Of a stretch of 34,394 bases of DNA, positions 3,431 to 34,394 are shown piece after piece. Made by a program: the position numbers and the translations under genes. The notes beneath the pieces are model-generated. The model saw only the letters and a list, made by a program, of their open reading frames with translations, ran no database searches and was not told where the DNA came from. The stretch's first letter is position 1. Each line of letters begins with the position of its first letter. The stretch covers positions 1-34,394 of the forward strand of contig JAGVYZ010000046.1 in the NCBI GenBank assembly GCA_018303025.1. The letters are read 5' to 3'. This stretch comes from Candidatus Woesearchaeota archaeon. Lineage in GTDB: Archaea; Nanobdellota; Nanobdellia; SCGC-AAA011-G17; GW2011-AR20.

Positions 3431-6400
3431 TTATTCTGTTTTCTTACTACAAATAATCCATATGACAATTCCCACAATCAAAATAATAAATATTCCTGCA
3501 AGAATAAATAAGTAATTATAATTTTTTGGTGGAGTTTTCGCAGGTATATCTATTGTAATTAATAGATTAGTATCATCCACATCAAAATCAATACAGTCCG
3601 GACCTAAACCATAACCATCTTCATCTCTATCAACACATTCTCCTTCTTGAAAGCAAGACTTTGTTTCTCTAGGCTGTCCGCTTTCGCTCATGCAATTATT
3701 CAAATCAACACAAACAAGTTTTTGAAAATGATTTTTGCATGGTCCAAACTGGCAGTTTCCCCAATTAGGAACACACTCACTTTCTTTAACTGCATTGCCT
3801 GAAATTAAAGAATAAAAAACATTATTCAAAAAAGTTTTTTCTGCACTAATGCGTTTGATACTCATTCCTGTTGCAATTGATCCTCCTCCGCTTCCGCTAC
3901 TTCCGTCAGAGCTTCCTTGAGAAGGCTCATTGATAGGAACTGTTACTGGAGTTTCTATAGGAATCTTTTCAATTTCTTCATTTTCTATTTGATCTTCATT
4001 AGGATTAAATTTCAATGCAATTGCCTCAATCTTCATTCCAATCCCAGATGTCCATGCGTAAATCATAGTTAATGTCTCTACATTTCCATCAGAAAACCAT
4101 CTTGTGCTATCATAAGCATCAAGATAAAAATTATCAAAATCAACCCATTCAACATTGCATTTATCTTCTGAAAAATTAAAGTCCGTGCAATAAACAAATT
4201 TAATTTCACGTTCATCAACTGACTCAAGATTAAGACCCCATTCAGAAAAATAATTTATAGGAACATCAAGAGACACTTCTTTCACTTTTATGTCAGACGT
4301 ATCCTCAAATTTATTTACAAAGACAGCATAATACTCTCCGGAGTCATTTGTTTTATTGTAAAATTCAGATATCAAATTCATTTCTTGTTTAAATGAAGAA
4401 TCAAAGAGCATTTGTGCACGAACCCGGTTTTCTCCATATCTTACATCCATATCAAACCGTTCTCCATTAGATAAATTCGGATATTCTGCATAAATTCCAT
4501 CATCTCTTGCTTCAGTATAACCGCGCCAGTCAGGAAAATAAATATCCCTAAAAACTCTGTTGTTTTCTTTATCAAAGATATTAATTTTTCCTTCAATAAA
4601 ATCATAAATACGAACTTCTTTCTCAACAACATTGTTTTCTTTATCTACATCATCTGCAATTAATTCAATCTTTAAATTATGTAATCCTATTTCTTCAGGA
4701 ATCCAATTATAATCATGCCCTAAGTTCATTCCTGATTCAAGATTATCAAAAGTATAAGTTTCCAGTGTCTTTCCATTATCACTTATGTTTAAAATCACAT
4801 TTTGGATATTTTTATTTCCATAATTCATTACAGATATCTGAATATGATTAGCTTGGTTTTTTATAGGATATTTTACCATATAATACTCCAAAGCAACATC
4901 TGCACCATCAACTTTTACATTTGTATAAATCTCATCAATATTATTTTCAATGTTTTGGTCTTCATTTTCTCTTAACCTTTCATTAACACTAACATTTGCA
5001 ACAATCTTTGTGTAACCTTTATTTTCAGGAGTCCATGGAACAATTACATCTTTTGAATTAAGAATTTCTCCTTTAGGAGCATAAACTTTTATTTTTACTT
5101 TTCCAACTGCACCAGCAAATGCTGCGGGCGAATTGCTTTCTAAAACCTCTATTCCAACACCATTAATCAAAACTATTCCTTGTGACTGGCTTACATATAA
5201 ACTATCGCTTTCGCTATTTTTTGTTACAGCAATATTTGAATAAACCCTATGATCTCCGCCAATATAAGAATCTGTTAATTCAATTTCATATTCTTCATTA
5301 TTCACGGTTATTGTTTCTTTTGGATTGTTGTCATCTAATTCCAGCTCCTGCAACTCTTCACAAAGGTCTAAACGGATAAAATTATCTCCAGAATTAGCAT
5401 TGCCTGTAAATGCTTTTATCTTGTAAGGTATACCCAAAAGATTGAATTTTTTTGTGCCATCAGCATTAAGAAGTACAGAATAACTTCCAAAGTCTGATCT
5501 TAATTCAACGCGATTATATGTATTAACACTGGTTATTTCTGTAGGAATTACCGCAACTTTGATTTTTCTTTCTCCATTAAAATCTTTCAAAATAAATTCA
5601 TCTCCTTCCTTCAGATTCAAACTGCAAGCATCAGGCCGATAATCTAAATTTCCGAGATTTTCAGAATAAATTAATCTTTCTTCACTTTTATCTTCATTAA
5701 TGTCATATACTGAAAGATTTACTTGCTGCGCAATCCTGTTTCCATAATTATTAACTCTCAATTTTATCTCTCCTGCTTCTCCAACAAAGTATTCTTGGTT
5801 ATATCCTGAGAAAGCAACATTAACATCAGGCCCAGCTGCTATTGCATCCCAATACATTTTAAGAATATTATTTTCCAAATTTATATCCTTGCTTGAATTA
5901 ACAACAAAAGCAAGTGTAAACATGCCTGATTTTTGAGGAGTAAACTCAAACTCTAAATTATTGTAATTGAGAGGGCAATTTACACAACCAAGTCCTCCAA
6001 GATTTCGTGATTGTTTTGTTTCTATAAGTTCAAAATTGCAACCCTTTGGATTTTCAAAATTACAGAAGTCAGAAGAATAATACATTGAAACATTCACATT
6101 TTCAGCTTCTTCATTTCCAACATTTTCAATCATCACTTGTATCCGAGTACTCATGTCTTTGATAAAAGCTAAATTATAATTATTTTCATAAATTCTTAAA
6201 TCCGGTCCAGACTCTTTAATTCTAATTATATTAAAGTATTCATTGTTGGATTTAATTTGATCTTCTGATTGAAGTTTCATTCTTATAATATATTGTCCTG
6301 GCTCTTTGTTTAATATGGCTTTGAAGTTTTCATTATAATAACCATCGAAATAATTTTTGCTAACATCTATTTCATCAACATAGCCCTGTCTGACTAACTC

Positions 6401-9400
6401 ATATTGACAATTTTTTCTTTTACTCCAATCATTTAAACTGCAATCATCTGAATTATCAGAAGGTTTTGCAACTTCCATTGACCAGCTTAAATGGGATAAT
6501 TTTTCTTTACCTTTGTTAACTATTTGAACTGAAAATTGAGCTTCTTTCCCAGAATAAATTTCATAAGGAATAAAACCATAAATTTGTGCATCTTTTGTAG
6601 GTTGAACATACTTGCCTTGCCATAACAGATTATCATTTTCATTTGCATCATTATCAATTATTGCTTTTGCTCTAATTCCGTTTCCTCCCACTTTTCCAAT
6701 AAACTTAAATTCAACAATCTTTGATTCAAATGGAGCCAAGTTAATTCTTTGTATTTCTTCATTATGTATGTCTTGTCCATAATTTTTATACTGGAGATTT
6801 AAATCAACTGCTTCTCGAGTTTTTCCTTTGTTTTTTATAGCAATTAAGGCTATATTCTCTTTGTCTATTTCTATATCCGGAATTGTAATTGATTGAACAG
6901 CAACATCATTCAGAGGAATATATCTCATGGCATCTTCTTTTTTAACTAAAATTCTTGCATCAAAATCATCCAATTCAACCGATGAAACAGGAGCACTAAA
7001 TGTTCCATCAGATTCTAATGGAAAATATTCGCTTTCAAGTTGCATACTTACTTTTTTTTCTGAAAATTGTTCAGGCCTCACAAGCACTAATGCATTTTCA
7101 AATTCTCTTGCAAAAATTCCTGCTGTTTCAGGCAAACTGCCCTCAACTAAAGAAACATCATCAAACCATGCAGTGCCTTTCCCATTATAAATCATTAAAG
7201 CAATATAAGAGCCATCAACATTATTTCCTGTTCTAAAACTTCCTGAAATTGTTGTCCAATCATGTGTTCCTGGACCAGGACCATTATAGTAAACATTGCC
7301 CTGCGATTCAGGTATATTAAAATAAATAGTAGCTCCTGGATTCACTTCTGCTCCAAGATTAGTAATCCATTCTATTGGTCTTGACTCTAAATTTTCTGTT
7401 TTAATCCTTGCGCTGAATGAATAAACACTATTTGGCTTTAATTCCAAGGATTGGTAAATCCCGCCAGTTTCCATGTTCTCGCCAGTAGAATAAACTTTCA
7501 CTGCTTTACTGCCAGATAAAATTTCAGAATTATAAGCAAAATTCTGAGACCACCACTCAAGTTTTTTCCAGTTTTTAATTTCATTATTCTCTGTTTCTTC
7601 AAAACCAGAATTTTTTATTAAATTATTTTGATTTAAATTTTGTGCATCTTCACTTGGAATAAAATAAAAATCTCCTAAAGGTTTTCCGACATTGAATTTA
7701 ATTGCATCAAACCAATAGTTTTCAGGCCGGCCATAATCTCTTGCATCCTGATATGAAAAATAGGTGCAGTTGTTAGAAATCAAATAATATCTGGCTAAAG
7801 CATAAATTCTTTTTTCTTCTGTATTTCCTGTTTTAATATTGGCTAATGTCGATATATCATAAGTTAATCTTTCTTTGCCAAGAGCCTGAGAATCCGCTTT
7901 AAGAAAAATTACTTTGTTATTTTGACATGCTTTCTCAAAATTATCAGCCACTTTTTTCAAAAAAACAGGATTGTCATACATAGAATTTCCATAAGTAATA
8001 TACCCTTCAAATAATGTTCCCATAGGAGAGTCATCTGAAAATTTATTGAAAATATATCCTGCATTAAGGGTTATCAGTTTATCTGGAAAATTTTGCTGAA
8101 GTCGTTCATATAAAGAAATTTTGTTTTTAATATATTCCTCTTGGGAATTTCCTGGATATTCCAAAATATAACTCCCGCCGCCTCCACCGCTAAAAACATC
8201 CATTACTCTTAAATCAGAATCATCCAAAAAAAAGCTGTCTACATTATAATTTTGAGAAATATGGTTAACATAATAATTAGCATAATCCCTAAAAAAGCTG
8301 TCTTGATGATTAAACATCCATGTATCTGCCATATATTGAGTAGCTAATCTGCTTTGCCATTTGAATCTTGCAGTTGCTTGTGGATTGACTAGATTTGAAA
8401 ATTCAGCATCATCAACAAATCCATCTTTATTTTTATCATTCATTTCATCCCAGCCCCAAAATGTTATCCTCGTGTCATCTTCGCGATAGTATTCTCCGCT
8501 AATTGCAGGGTCAGTAATTACTATAAATCCAAATACAATATCTCCTCCATAATTATGAGTTTGTAATAAAGGGCCTTCAGTTAAACTTAGCGGACATTTA
8601 ATTTTAATCCAGTACAAGTAATCATTATTAACTTTATTTTTCTTCCAGTCTGTAGGAGGATAAAAAGCCATTTTTCCCTTTTTAATAAAATTTTCAGTTG
8701 TATCTTCTTTAACATCTAATTTTTTCCATTCATTGCCATTCCAGTATTCTAAATTAATTTCAAAATTACTGCCAGCACTCTTGAGAACATTCCAGTTTAT
8801 TTCTTGAAATTTTCCTAAATTTCCTATGTATATCTCATCTCCTGAAGAAGAACACAAAGGAATATATTCGTCACCCTGCACAGAAACGCCTTTGCCATAA
8901 TATGACTTTATGCTGATATCGTAAAAATTCTGATTCTGCTTAACATAAATCCTAAAAAATTTATCTATTAGTGCTCTCCTATATCCTTCTTCGGGAATTT
9001 CTGTGTAAGAACCCAGATATCTTCTATCAATAGTTATATCCTTTGAAAGATGCAAAAATGCCCTTTCTGAATCCTCATTTTTTTCTTCAGCATAATTTAA
9101 GAGAAAAGGGGTATCTACATATTCGTTAAATTGCGAGAGAGTCAAGTCCAGATAATAAGAAATAATAAACTCCTTGTCTAATCCCTGCCCTTTTTGTATG
9201 CTAGTTTTACCAATTACAAAATCAAATAAAGGGTTAATAGAATAAATGTCAGAAAGAGTAATCTCTCTAAAAAGCATAGCAAAAGTCTTTATATGCGAAA
9301 ACTTATTTTTTATCGGGTTTATCTTTGTAAGGTCAGAATGCTTTTCTAAACCTGCAGTACATGCTCCGTCTTGGCAAATTTCTCCTTTATCAGAGCAATT

Positions 9401-10309
9401 ATATGCTTTAACCAAAGCAATTCCATTCTCGCAATAATTCTCGTTTATATAATTAAAATTTTCAGAAGGATTAAAGCACGAATCTTCTTTTTCTATTCCA
9501 TAAACTGTTTTTCCTTTAATATAATAATTCAATCCACTATCACTATCAGTACAAATTGTTGGAGTTGTTGGACATTTATCCGCACTTGAAACTAATTTTC
9601 CCCCTAATTCCAAGCATAAATCATCTTCATTCTCAATGCAATTTGTATCAATGCCAGTTCCTGTTGCATAATCAGAACACCAATGATATCCATTGTTTAA
9701 ACACGAATTACATGTTTCAAAGTCTGATGGTTTTGTTTCAGGATTTACATAACTCGCACTGCATTCAGCACTCATTCCTCCATTAATTCCATAACAATAC
9801 CACTGCCATAAATCATAGAATTGAACAGAGCCATTTATTCCTGTAGAACATAAATCAATTGTTGGTGCTGTTGAAAATGTTTTTTCATTAGAAGAGCCGC
9901 AAACACCATTGACTGTAGTTGGAGCTACTTTTGGTGCAACATATCCAGGACATTGTTCTTTAACTTCAATTAATTTTCCACCAGAAGAACTACATCCTTC
10001 TCCAAATGTAATTCCTATTCCAAATTTATCATTATTTTTTAAATCACATTGTCCAACAGAACTTCCTTCGATATTTACATCTATAGAACAATATGCTTTT
10101 CCAGAATCAATACATTTTACACATTCATTATTTGCATTTAAATCTAAAGAACTTCCTTTTGTTTTCTTTCCAAATAAATCTTTAAAAAAATCAACAATTC
10201 CAGAAACAATGCTATTTCCTGTAATTAAATTGTCATAATAATAATTTGAAGCAAAAACATTCGAAGCCAATAAAACAAAAATTAAAAGAATTATTATACC
10301 TCTTTTCAT
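3431..10309 (-). CDS. Giant secreted/anchored surface protein (2292 aa): signal peptide, glycoside-hydrolase-like region, carbohydrate-binding-like module, CARDB-like repeats, C-terminal TM
   Basis: N-term MKRGIIILLIFVLLASNVFAS; NLIKNSGFEETENNEIKNW... CBM-like; repeated Ig/CARDB-like segments; C-term TM LFILAGIFIILIVGIVIWIICSKKTE. Confidence 0.8.
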   Translation of the reverse strand: MKRGIIILLIFVLLASNVFASNYYYDNLITGNSIVSGIVDFFKDLFGKKTKGSSLDLNANNECVKCIDSGKAYCSIDVNIEGSSVGQCDLKNNDKFGIGITFGEGCSSSGGKLIEVKEQCPGYVAPKVAPTTVNGVCGSSNEKTFSTAPTIDLCSTGINGSVQFYDLWQWYCYGINGGMSAECSASYVNPETKPSDFETCNSCLNNGYHWCSDYATGTGIDTNCIENEDDLCLELGGKLVSSADKCPTTPTICTDSDSGLNYYIKGKTVYGIEKEDSCFNPSENFNYINENYCENGIALVKAYNCSDKGEICQDGACTAGLEKHSDLTKINPIKNKFSHIKTFAMLFREITLSDIYSINPLFDFVIGKTSIQKGQGLDKEFIISYYLDLTLSQFNEYVDTPFLLNYAEEKNEDSERAFLHLSKDITIDRRYLGSYTEIPEEGYRRALIDKFFRIYVKQNQNFYDISIKSYYGKGVSVQGDEYIPLCSSSGDEIYIGNLGKFQEINWNVLKSAGSNFEINLEYWNGNEWKKLDVKEDTTENFIKKGKMAFYPPTDWKKNKVNNDYLYWIKIKCPLSLTEGPLLQTHNYGGDIVFGFIVITDPAISGEYYREDDTRITFWGWDEMNDKNKDGFVDDAEFSNLVNPQATARFKWQSRLATQYMADTWMFNHQDSFFRDYANYYVNHISQNYNVDSFFLDDSDLRVMDVFSGGGGGSYILEYPGNSQEEYIKNKISLYERLQQNFPDKLITLNAGYIFNKFSDDSPMGTLFEGYITYGNSMYDNPVFLKKVADNFEKACQNNKVIFLKADSQALGKERLTYDISTLANIKTGNTEEKRIYALARYYLISNNCTYFSYQDARDYGRPENYWFDAIKFNVGKPLGDFYFIPSEDAQNLNQNNLIKNSGFEETENNEIKNWKKLEWWSQNFAYNSEILSGSKAVKVYSTGENMETGGIYQSLELKPNSVYSFSARIKTENLESRPIEWITNLGAEVNPGATIYFNIPESQGNVYYNGPGPGTHDWTTISGSFRTGNNVDGSYIALMIYNGKGTAWFDDVSLVEGSLPETAGIFAREFENALVLVRPEQFSEKKVSMQLESEYFPLESDGTFSAPVSSVELDDFDARILVKKEDAMRYIPLNDVAVQSITIPDIEIDKENIALIAIKNKGKTREAVDLNLQYKNYGQDIHNEEIQRINLAPFESKIVEFKFIGKVGGNGIRAKAIIDNDANENDNLLWQGKYVQPTKDAQIYGFIPYEIYSGKEAQFSVQIVNKGKEKLSHLSWSMEVAKPSDNSDDCSLNDWSKRKNCQYELVRQGYVDEIDVSKNYFDGYYNENFKAILNKEPGQYIIRMKLQSEDQIKSNNEYFNIIRIKESGPDLRIYENNYNLAFIKDMSTRIQVMIENVGNEEAENVNVSMYYSSDFCNFENPKGCNFELIETKQSRNLGGLGCVNCPLNYNNLEFEFTPQKSGMFTLAFVVNSSKDINLENNILKMYWDAIAAGPDVNVAFSGYNQEYFVGEAGEIKLRVNNYGNRIAQQVNLSVYDINEDKSEERLIYSENLGNLDYRPDACSLNLKEGDEFILKDFNGERKIKVAVIPTEITSVNTYNRVELRSDFGSYSVLLNADGTKKFNLLGIPYKIKAFTGNANSGDNFIRLDLCEELQELELDDNNPKETITVNNEEYEIELTDSYIGGDHRVYSNIAVTKNSESDSLYVSQSQGIVLINGVGIEVLESNSPAAFAGAVGKVKIKVYAPKGEILNSKDVIVPWTPENKGYTKIVANVSVNERLRENEDQNIENNIDEIYTNVKVDGADVALEYYMVKYPIKNQANHIQISVMNYGNKNIQNVILNISDNGKTLETYTFDNLESGMNLGHDYNWIPEEIGLHNLKIELIADDVDKENNVVEKEVRIYDFIEGKINIFDKENNRVFRDIYFPDWRGYTEARDDGIYAEYPNLSNGERFDMDVRYGENRVRAQMLFDSSFKQEMNLISEFYNKTNDSGEYYAVFVNKFEDTSDIKVKEVSLDVPINYFSEWGLNLESVDEREIKFVYCTDFNFSEDKCNVEWVDFDNFYLDAYDSTRWFSDGNVETLTMIYAWTSGIGMKIEAIALKFNPNEDQIENEEIEKIPIETPVTVPINEPSQGSSDGSSGSGGGSIATGMSIKRISAEKTFLNNVFYSLISGNAVKESECVPNWGNCQFGPCKNHFQKLVCVDLNNCMSESGQPRETKSCFQEGECVDRDEDGYGLGPDCIDFDVDDTNLLITIDIPAKTPPKNYNYLFILAGIFIILIVGIVIWIICSKKTE

Positions 10310-14795: not shown

Positions 14796-15308
14796 TTAAC
14801 GACATAAATAAGTAATAAAATCTTGCATAAAAATATGCCCTTTCCAAAATTCTTCTAACTTCTCTTGCATTGAATCAAGATCTCTAAAATGCTGTGATTT
14901 TGTCACAGCATTTTTAGTAACTTTCCAGCAAGTTTCAATAGGATTAAGCTCTGGTGAATATGGTGGAAGATATTCAACTACAAACCTTTTACTATATTTT
15001 TCTATAAGGCTCTTAATAACATCTGTTTTGTGGAATCCTGCATTATCCAAGATAAACAAATATTTTTTGTTGGGCTTTAGCCAAACAAAAAGATCTTTTA
15101 AGAAAAAAGAAAATGTCAAGCTGTTCTGAGCAACATAAAAATCATAATAAAAATTATGTGAACTTGTGAGAGCACCAAAGACAACGAGTTTTTTGTTGCT
15201 CCAAAAGAAAGCTCCTTTTGGTTTCTCTCCTCTAGGAAACCAAATTCTCTTATAATTTTCTTTTAACTGGAAACTTACCTCGTCAATGGCAACTATTTCA
15301 TAACCCAC
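14796..15308 (-). CDS. IS630 transposase catalytic (DDE) part, orfB
   Basis: IDEVSFQL...LDNAGFHK...YLPPYSPELNPIETCW. Confidence 0.9.
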   Translation of the reverse strand: MGYEIVAIDEVSFQLKENYKRIWFPRGEKPKGAFFWSNKKLVVFGALTSSHNFYYDFYVAQNSLTFSFFLKDLFVWLKPNKKYLFILDNAGFHKTDVIKSLIEKYSKRFVVEYLPPYSPELNPIETCWKVTKNAVTKSQHFRDLDSMQEKLEEFWKGHIFMQDFITYLCR

Positions 15309-15751
15309 ATATTTCGATTTGAGTTTTTTTTAAACTCATCTCGAAATTTATCAACTTTTTCTTGGTCATGCTTCAAATGCTGAGGTCTTGGCATAATAAG
15401 TGAAAAGCCAATTTTATGCATAATTCGCTCCACATGACGGAGCGAATATAATTTTCCAATCTCTTGGTGAATAATTTCGCCTATTTCTTTAGTATTTACT
15501 GAGCAATATCCATCATTTGCTTTTTTAATTTTTGTAAGAATCTTATTTTTAAGTCTAATAAGATTCTGTTGCGTCAATTTTGTTGGTCTGCCACTTCTTG
15601 GCAATGTTTCTAAAGTTCTTCCAGATAGATTGTATTTAATCCATCTATGTACAGTGGGCTGGCTACAGCCTATTAATTCAGAAATTTCTTCTTGTTTTTT
15701 TCCTTTATTATATAAATTAATGATTAATTCTCTTTCTTTAATATTTAACAT
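15293..15751 (-). CDS. IS630 transposase HTH part, orfA
   Basis: HTH SELIGCSQPTVHRWIKYN...; overlaps orfB at an A AAA AAC slippery heptamer. Confidence 0.88.
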   Translation of the reverse strand: MLNIKERELIINLYNKGKKQEEISELIGCSQPTVHRWIKYNLSGRTLETLPRSGRPTKLTQQNLIRLKNKILTKIKKANDGYCSVNTKEIGEIIHQEIGKLYSLRHVERIMHKIGFSLIMPRPQHLKHDQEKVDKFRDEFKKNSNRNMWVMK

Positions 15752-34099: not shown

Positions 34100-34205
34100 A
34101 TCAAAGCAAGGTTTATTTTCTTAATAAAAGTTTCTAAGTTAAAAAAAGGTTGGGAAGAGGGGGATTTGAACCCCCGACAGCATGATCTTCAGTCATGTAC
34201 TCTCC

Positions 34206-34226
34206 TTAGCCAACTTTTCTAAGTTT
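34206..34226 (-). other. D-loop intron of tRNA-Phe
   Basis: BHB: AGCC/GGCT central helix, bulges TGA and AAG, outer CTC/GAG, inner AACT/AGTT. Confidence 0.82.
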
Positions 34227-34241
34227 CAGGCTGAGTTACCT

Positions 34242-34254
34242 CTATGGCTTTAGT
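34242..34254 (-). other. Acceptor-stem 4/5 intron of tRNA-Phe (13 nt)
   Basis: BHB-like: ATGG/CCAT central helix, bulges GAA and AGA, minimal inner loop; excision restores GGGAAGG/TCTTCCC. Confidence 0.75.
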
Positions 34255-34394
34255 TCCCATGATACTCAGCTTAAATATTTTAGAAAGGGCATTTCTTATA
34301 AACATTTCTGTTTAGAACATTTGTTGTATCCCGAAACTATTTCATAAGGACAGTATAATTGTCCATATGAAACTAACTAGACCTAAACTAATCG

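Follow-up and report, generated by a model that had tools for sequence, protein, structure and literature searches.

The window analysed, that is, the whole stretch of 34,394 nt, carries on its minus strand a tRNA-Phe(GAA) gene (34258 to 34151) composed of three exons and two introns, with a TATA box upstream and a T-run downstream (Table 1). The predicted spliced product, GGGAAGG TA ACTC AGCCTGGGA GAGT A CATGA CTGAAGA TCATG CTGTC GGGGG TTCAAAT CCCCC TCTTCCC A, folds into a complete cloverleaf with a GAA anticodon and discriminator A. A split or permuted tRNA gene was rejected as an explanation, since the three exons are found in order and all inside 108 bp.

Table 1. Features of the tRNA-Phe(GAA) locus, listed in the direction of transcription.
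Feature	Position	Strand	Remarks
TATA box TTTATAAG	34295-34302	minus	44 nt before G1; GAAATG just upstream
Leader segment GCTGAGT	34264-34270	minus	Complementary to D-arm ACTCAGC (34236-34230), with which it forms the outer helix of BHB 1
Exon 1, GGGA	34255-34258	minus	Nucleotides 1-4 of tRNA-Phe; same 5' ends in uninterrupted homologues
Intron 1, ACTAAAGCCATAG	34242-34254	minus	13 nt, position 4/5; homologous introns at L018, L041, L043, L077 and L143
Intron-1 BHB	34260-34257/34247-34244	minus	Central helix ATGG/CCAT; bulges GA^A, AG^A
Exon 2, AGGTAACTCAGCCTG	34227-34241	minus	Contains ACTCAGCC, used by both BHBs
Intron 2, AAACTTAGAAAAGTTGGCTAA	34206-34226	minus	21 nt, position 18/19 (G18|G19)
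Intron-2 BHB	34232-34229/34211-34208	minus	Central helix AGCC/GGCT; bulges TG^A, AA^G
Intron-2 inner hairpin		minus	AACTT-AGAA-AAGTT
Exon 3, GGAGAGTACATGACTGAAGATCATGCTGTCGGGGGTTCAAATCCCCCTCTTCCCA	34151-34205	minus	Remainder of tRNA-Phe; anticodon loop CTGAAGA intact; discriminator A; CCA not encoded
T7 run	34141-34147	minus	Probable terminator, by sequence

The two introns were recovered by a script written to list 3-4-3 BHB motifs and to score the cloverleaves that result, blind to the introns proposed in the first-pass annotation. This search returned exactly introns 1 and 2, both with a central helix of four Watson-Crick pairs out of four, bulges of 3 nt, and the cut after the second bulge base of a 3-4-3 core. 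When the 5' part of the gene was shuffled with preservation of dinucleotides, 1 of 2000 shuffles equalled the real score; the internal signal alone thus corresponds to p ~0.001, and the comparative evidence described below is far stronger. The BHB rule proposed by the first-pass annotation holds for both introns, with the qualification that the 3' bulge of intron 2 measures 3 nt only if a shifted CTC/GAG outer helix is formed, and 5 nt in the register of the mature D-stem. Likewise, the placement of the introns in the acceptor stem (4/5) and in the D-loop stands, the latter being 18/19 in standard numbering. The expectation that standard scans would miss the gene was not borne out: ARAGORN and Rfam (only 40.3 bits) both call a tRNA-Phe here but misplace its 5' end at 34219, inside intron 2. 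Their agreement on this span would favour an uninterrupted tRNA beginning at 34219, a reading that we find scarcely credible, given that GAAAAGT, as the 5' strand of the acceptor stem, would be a poor partner for TCTTCCC and that the true 5' exon lies further upstream in the relatives.

Comparison with related genomes supports the interrupted gene. Many relatives possess an uninterrupted tRNA-Phe that matches the predicted spliced product, and the earlier claims that two BHB introns of 13 and 21 nt interrupt a minus-strand tRNA-Phe, that their removal gives a standard cloverleaf, and that the anticodon loop is continuous are upheld by the sequence, the shuffles, the homologues and the covariation. 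Acceptor-stem introns were found at 4/5 in G005 (31 nt) and at 3/4 in G011 (14 nt), G003 (15 nt) and G093 (17 nt); that of G087 has a weaker motif, with a central helix of 3 bp and an A-G mismatch. The D-loop intron occurs at the same junction in 12 of the 103 genomes of the order, as judged by pattern, as well as in G051, and its pattern was matched in 18 of the 378 genomes of the class. One relative, G003, carries both introns together, while others have a single one, either in the acceptor stem (G005, G011) or in the D-loop (G063, G055, G051). Introns of this kind are widespread in this clade, a point absent from the first-pass annotation, as are the part played by the leader and the conflict between the two BHBs described below. 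Four loci that fitted the acceptor-intron pattern in the order-wide search (L148-L151) were set aside, as their upstream GGGA belongs to the T-arm of the preceding tRNA, and two further tRNA-Phe genes (L159 in G053 and L088 in G050) apparently contain three introns each.

Across 13 D-loop introns, the helices are maintained by compensatory change. The central helix changes twice from AGCC/GGCT to AACC/GGTT, and the inner helix varies almost everywhere yet remains paired, with a score of 58.5 out of 65 against a permuted mean of 33.9 and a maximum of 50 in 20,000 permutations. For the D-loop BHB, 96.8% of the cells are paired, and 25 cells show a double change, compared with 8.0 after shuffling (none of 500 shuffles reached this value). 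In the acceptor-intron genes it is the leader that tracks changes in the D-arm. The intron boundaries and BHB cores, together with the helix covariation and the leader/D-arm complementarity, are shown by the sequence and its comparison with relatives.

No other match to tRNA-Phe was obtained in the genome. With an assembly of 87.5% completeness in 55 contigs, the locus might be a decayed or disrupted pseudogene and a functional tRNA-Phe might lie in the unassembled part. We regard this as very improbable: the mature cloverleaf is perfect, promoter and T-run are present, compensatory changes occur among the relatives, one of which (G003) keeps both introns, and two preserved BHBs are not expected from decay. 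The gene, apparently present in a single copy, is very probably functional and yields a tRNA-Phe(GAA) from which two BHB introns are spliced by proteins; the predicted order of processing is intron 1, intron 2, RNase P.

An intron at position 3/4 or 4/5 implies that the BHB must recruit bases upstream of G1. In all six acceptor-intron genes, the leader shows complementarity to the 5' D-arm strand of the same gene (score of at least 5.5), compared with 1 of 43 others; in G011, for example, CAACC in the D-arm is matched by GGTTG in the leader. For the gene of the window, folding of the nascent transcript predicts the leader/D-arm pairing with a probability of 0.97 to 1.0 for six of the seven pairs. 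The distance between TATA box and G1 is 42 to 46 nt in four of the five acceptor-intron genes where it could be measured (the value for G093 is unreliable because of a repeated leader), compared with a cluster at 30 to 37 nt, typically 33 to 35 nt, formed by 27 of 40 genes lacking an acceptor intron; the contrast rests on this cluster, as for 13 of these 40 control genes the boxes selected automatically were implausible. A promoter located approximately 10 bp further upstream is consistent with a leader approximately 10 nt longer, and the long complementary leader and the shifted promoter are further signs of selection on splicing.

The two BHBs claim the same strand of the D-arm: the outer helix of BHB 1 includes ACTCAGC (34236-34230), and BHB 2 uses CTC and AGCC (34235-34229), so that full coexistence is impossible. 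According to ViennaRNA energies at 37 °C, calculated for growing transcripts, the nascent RNA reaches its lowest energy when folded into BHB 1 (z -2.57), which forms once exon 2 is made, with a probability for its central helix of ~0.9, and of 0.70 to 0.73 in the full precursor. The central helix of BHB 2 has a probability of at most 0.17 with intron 1 present and of 0.92 to 0.98 after deletion of intron 1, and, taken by itself, the segment of intron 2 has a fold no more stable than those of its shuffles (z -0.44). Since BHB 1 would exclude BHB 2 until intron 1 is gone, we infer from the folding model that intron 1 is removed before intron 2, and that RNase P acts after the removal of intron 1. 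That one intron may have to leave before a second BHB can form has already been recognised in the tRNAscan-SE 2.0 paper (PMC8450103).

Transcription would start approximately 15 nt upstream of G1, and in the nascent transcript the leader would fold together with exon 1, intron 1 and the D-arm strand into BHB 1, with leader bases forming part of its central helix. An alpha-type splicing endonuclease would then cleave both bulges, and a ligase would join GGGA to AGG. The loss of intron 1 would release the D-arm, allowing BHB 2 to form and intron 2 to be excised, upon which the cloverleaf would form and RNase P would trim the leader. Alternatively, both introns may be spliced independently or in reverse order, the mature D-stem forming first and intron 2 leaving before intron 1. 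BHB 1 still folds with a probability of ~0.93 if intron 2 is removed first, so that either order could yield the product, and the single-intron relatives named above indicate that each intron can be spliced alone; however, BHB 1 is transcribed first, and the low probability of the BHB-2 central helix while BHB 1 stands makes this alternative unlikely, although it carries some weight. Removal of intron 1 followed by intron 2 remains the preferred order.

A single PF01974 gene was identified in the genome, encoding an alpha-type splicing endonuclease of 176 aa, and no second subunit was found there in a PF01974 search extended to E values up to 10. One such gene per genome is also the rule in nearly all of 145 relatives. 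Over residues 28-176, the protein aligns without gaps to the Methanocaldococcus jannaschii enzyme (1A79); it is of the same size, has no extra N-terminal length, and has its best PDB match in the catalytic subunit of Nanoarchaeum equitans (3iey_A, E 9.8e-38). Relative to 1A79, over residues 28-176 and at the sequence level only, no insertion corresponding to the lysine-bearing CSL/ASL loop near the active site was found, the loop residues being taken from PMC12397907. Based on its size and the gapless alignment, the enzyme is probably an alpha-4 type homotetramer. All seven non-canonical junctions checked in this genome have a 3-4-3 core, in a sample that is biased by the search method, as the intron finder accepts 3-4-3 cores only and the frequency of relaxed motifs lies outside its reach; the tRNA-Val junction has this core without an adjacent outer helix. 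These observations fit an endonuclease of narrow specificity serving strict BHB motifs at new positions. Almost every relative, G003, G005 and G011 among them, encodes RNase P p30; no p30 gene was found in the present assembly, which is 87.5% complete, and for RNase P RNA no match above the cut-off was obtained in this genome, the weak candidate L164 (G000:C52:13032-13158) scoring 16.5 bits. In one family of the class (f25; G107, G119, G128, G135 and G142), two PF01974 genes lie side by side in three of the five genomes, and no RNase P p30 was found in the genomes listed, a combination that resembles N. equitans.

The cysteinyl-tRNA synthetase encoded next to the tRNA-Phe gene has its nearest relatives (~65-71% identity) mostly in Pacearchaeota, Woesearchaeota and other DPANN, including GW2011_AR20. 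On the evidence of this one protein, we regard the host as Pacearchaeota-like (DPANN) and not as a member of the Thermoproteales; the parallel drawn with the latter in the first-pass annotation is correct insofar as such introns are established there. The introns resemble the non-canonical ones of Thermoproteales in their BHB type, in the presence of several per tRNA, in their location in the D-loop and acceptor stem (20/21 and 3/4 in Thermoproteales), and in length. They differ in their positions (4/5 and 18/19), in their Pacearchaeota-like DPANN host, and in being accompanied by one endonuclease gene, in place of an (alpha-beta)2 pair, and by tested junctions that keep the 3-4-3 core. Introns at 3/4 and 20/21 and several introns per tRNA were already established (PMC4090602, where position 3/4 is attributed to Sugahara et al. 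2008). The remark that 13 nt would be very small does not hold, as archaeal tRNA introns range from 11 to 129 nt, with isodecoder medians mostly of 12 to 25 nt (PMC4090602). Positions 3/4 and 20/21, multiplicity and a length of 13 nt thus all have precedent; the setting, a DPANN archaeon with one simple enzyme, is new, and in the open literature, of which part was covered, we found no paper on scattered tRNA introns in Pacearchaeota.

As in the ARMAN (Micrarchaeota), likewise archaea of ultrasmall size whose tRNAs are interrupted at many positions (PMC12397907, PMC4033280), introns are scattered in the present genome, but its single-unit alpha-type endonuclease lacks the ARMAN-specific loop and differs from the epsilon-2 enzyme. 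The likeness to N. equitans lies in the endonuclease match; in contrast to its (alpha-beta)2 system, neither trans-split genes nor a second subunit were found here, and the relatives have RNase P p30. The alpha-4 enzyme of M. jannaschii, comparable in size and alignment, belongs to a type described as cutting canonical BHBs only (PMC4033280), while its relative here would serve many non-canonical positions. We tentatively propose, as a possibility, that in this DPANN class introns occupy almost any tRNA position under a loop-less, single-subunit alpha-4-type enzyme, by means of strict BHBs and, where needed, a purpose-built 5' leader. Reviews associate a scattered distribution of tRNA introns with endonucleases of the (alpha-beta)2 or epsilon-2 type that carry special loops; if the proposal is true, the positional spread of introns would be decoupled from the gain of a CSL/ASL loop or a second subunit, and tRNA-Phe maturation would be an obligate sequence of intron 1, intron 2 and RNase P. 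The idea of endonuclease-intron co-evolution can be put to a direct test in this large group, whose members are mostly uncultivated and combine numerous scattered introns with what is apparently one simple enzyme. In practice, tRNA scans of DPANN genomes produce wrong ends or overlook genes, with consequences for tRNA counts and completeness estimates.

Several other tRNA genes of the genome, which was surveyed by searches and in selected stretches, are interrupted. A tRNA-Lys(CTT) gene (L012 1501-1613, G000:C27) is interrupted at 30/31 by an intron of 13 nt, ACATAAGGATGAA, that shares the minimal C-tetraloop-G inner hairpin of intron 1 of tRNA-Phe, and by another insertion close to the canonical site. 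In a tRNA-Arg gene, read as TCG (L010 1501-1596, G000:C8), a 22-nt BHB intron apparently splits the anticodon (35/36). Interruptions were also found in tRNA-Gln(CTG) at 53/54 (L013, G000:C28), in the T-loop of tRNA-Lys(TTT) (L140, G000:C31) and in the D-loop of tRNA-Val(TAC) (L015, G000:C33), and apparently several introns each are present in a probable tRNA-Glu (L051, G000:C32:4917) and a probable tRNA with a long variable arm (L054, G000:C53:38900). Elsewhere on the minus strand of the window, two overlapping frames (14796-15751) resemble, by eye, an IS630-type transposase with a frameshift, and a 2292-aa protein (3431-10309) has, by eye, the appearance of a secreted, membrane-anchored surface protein.
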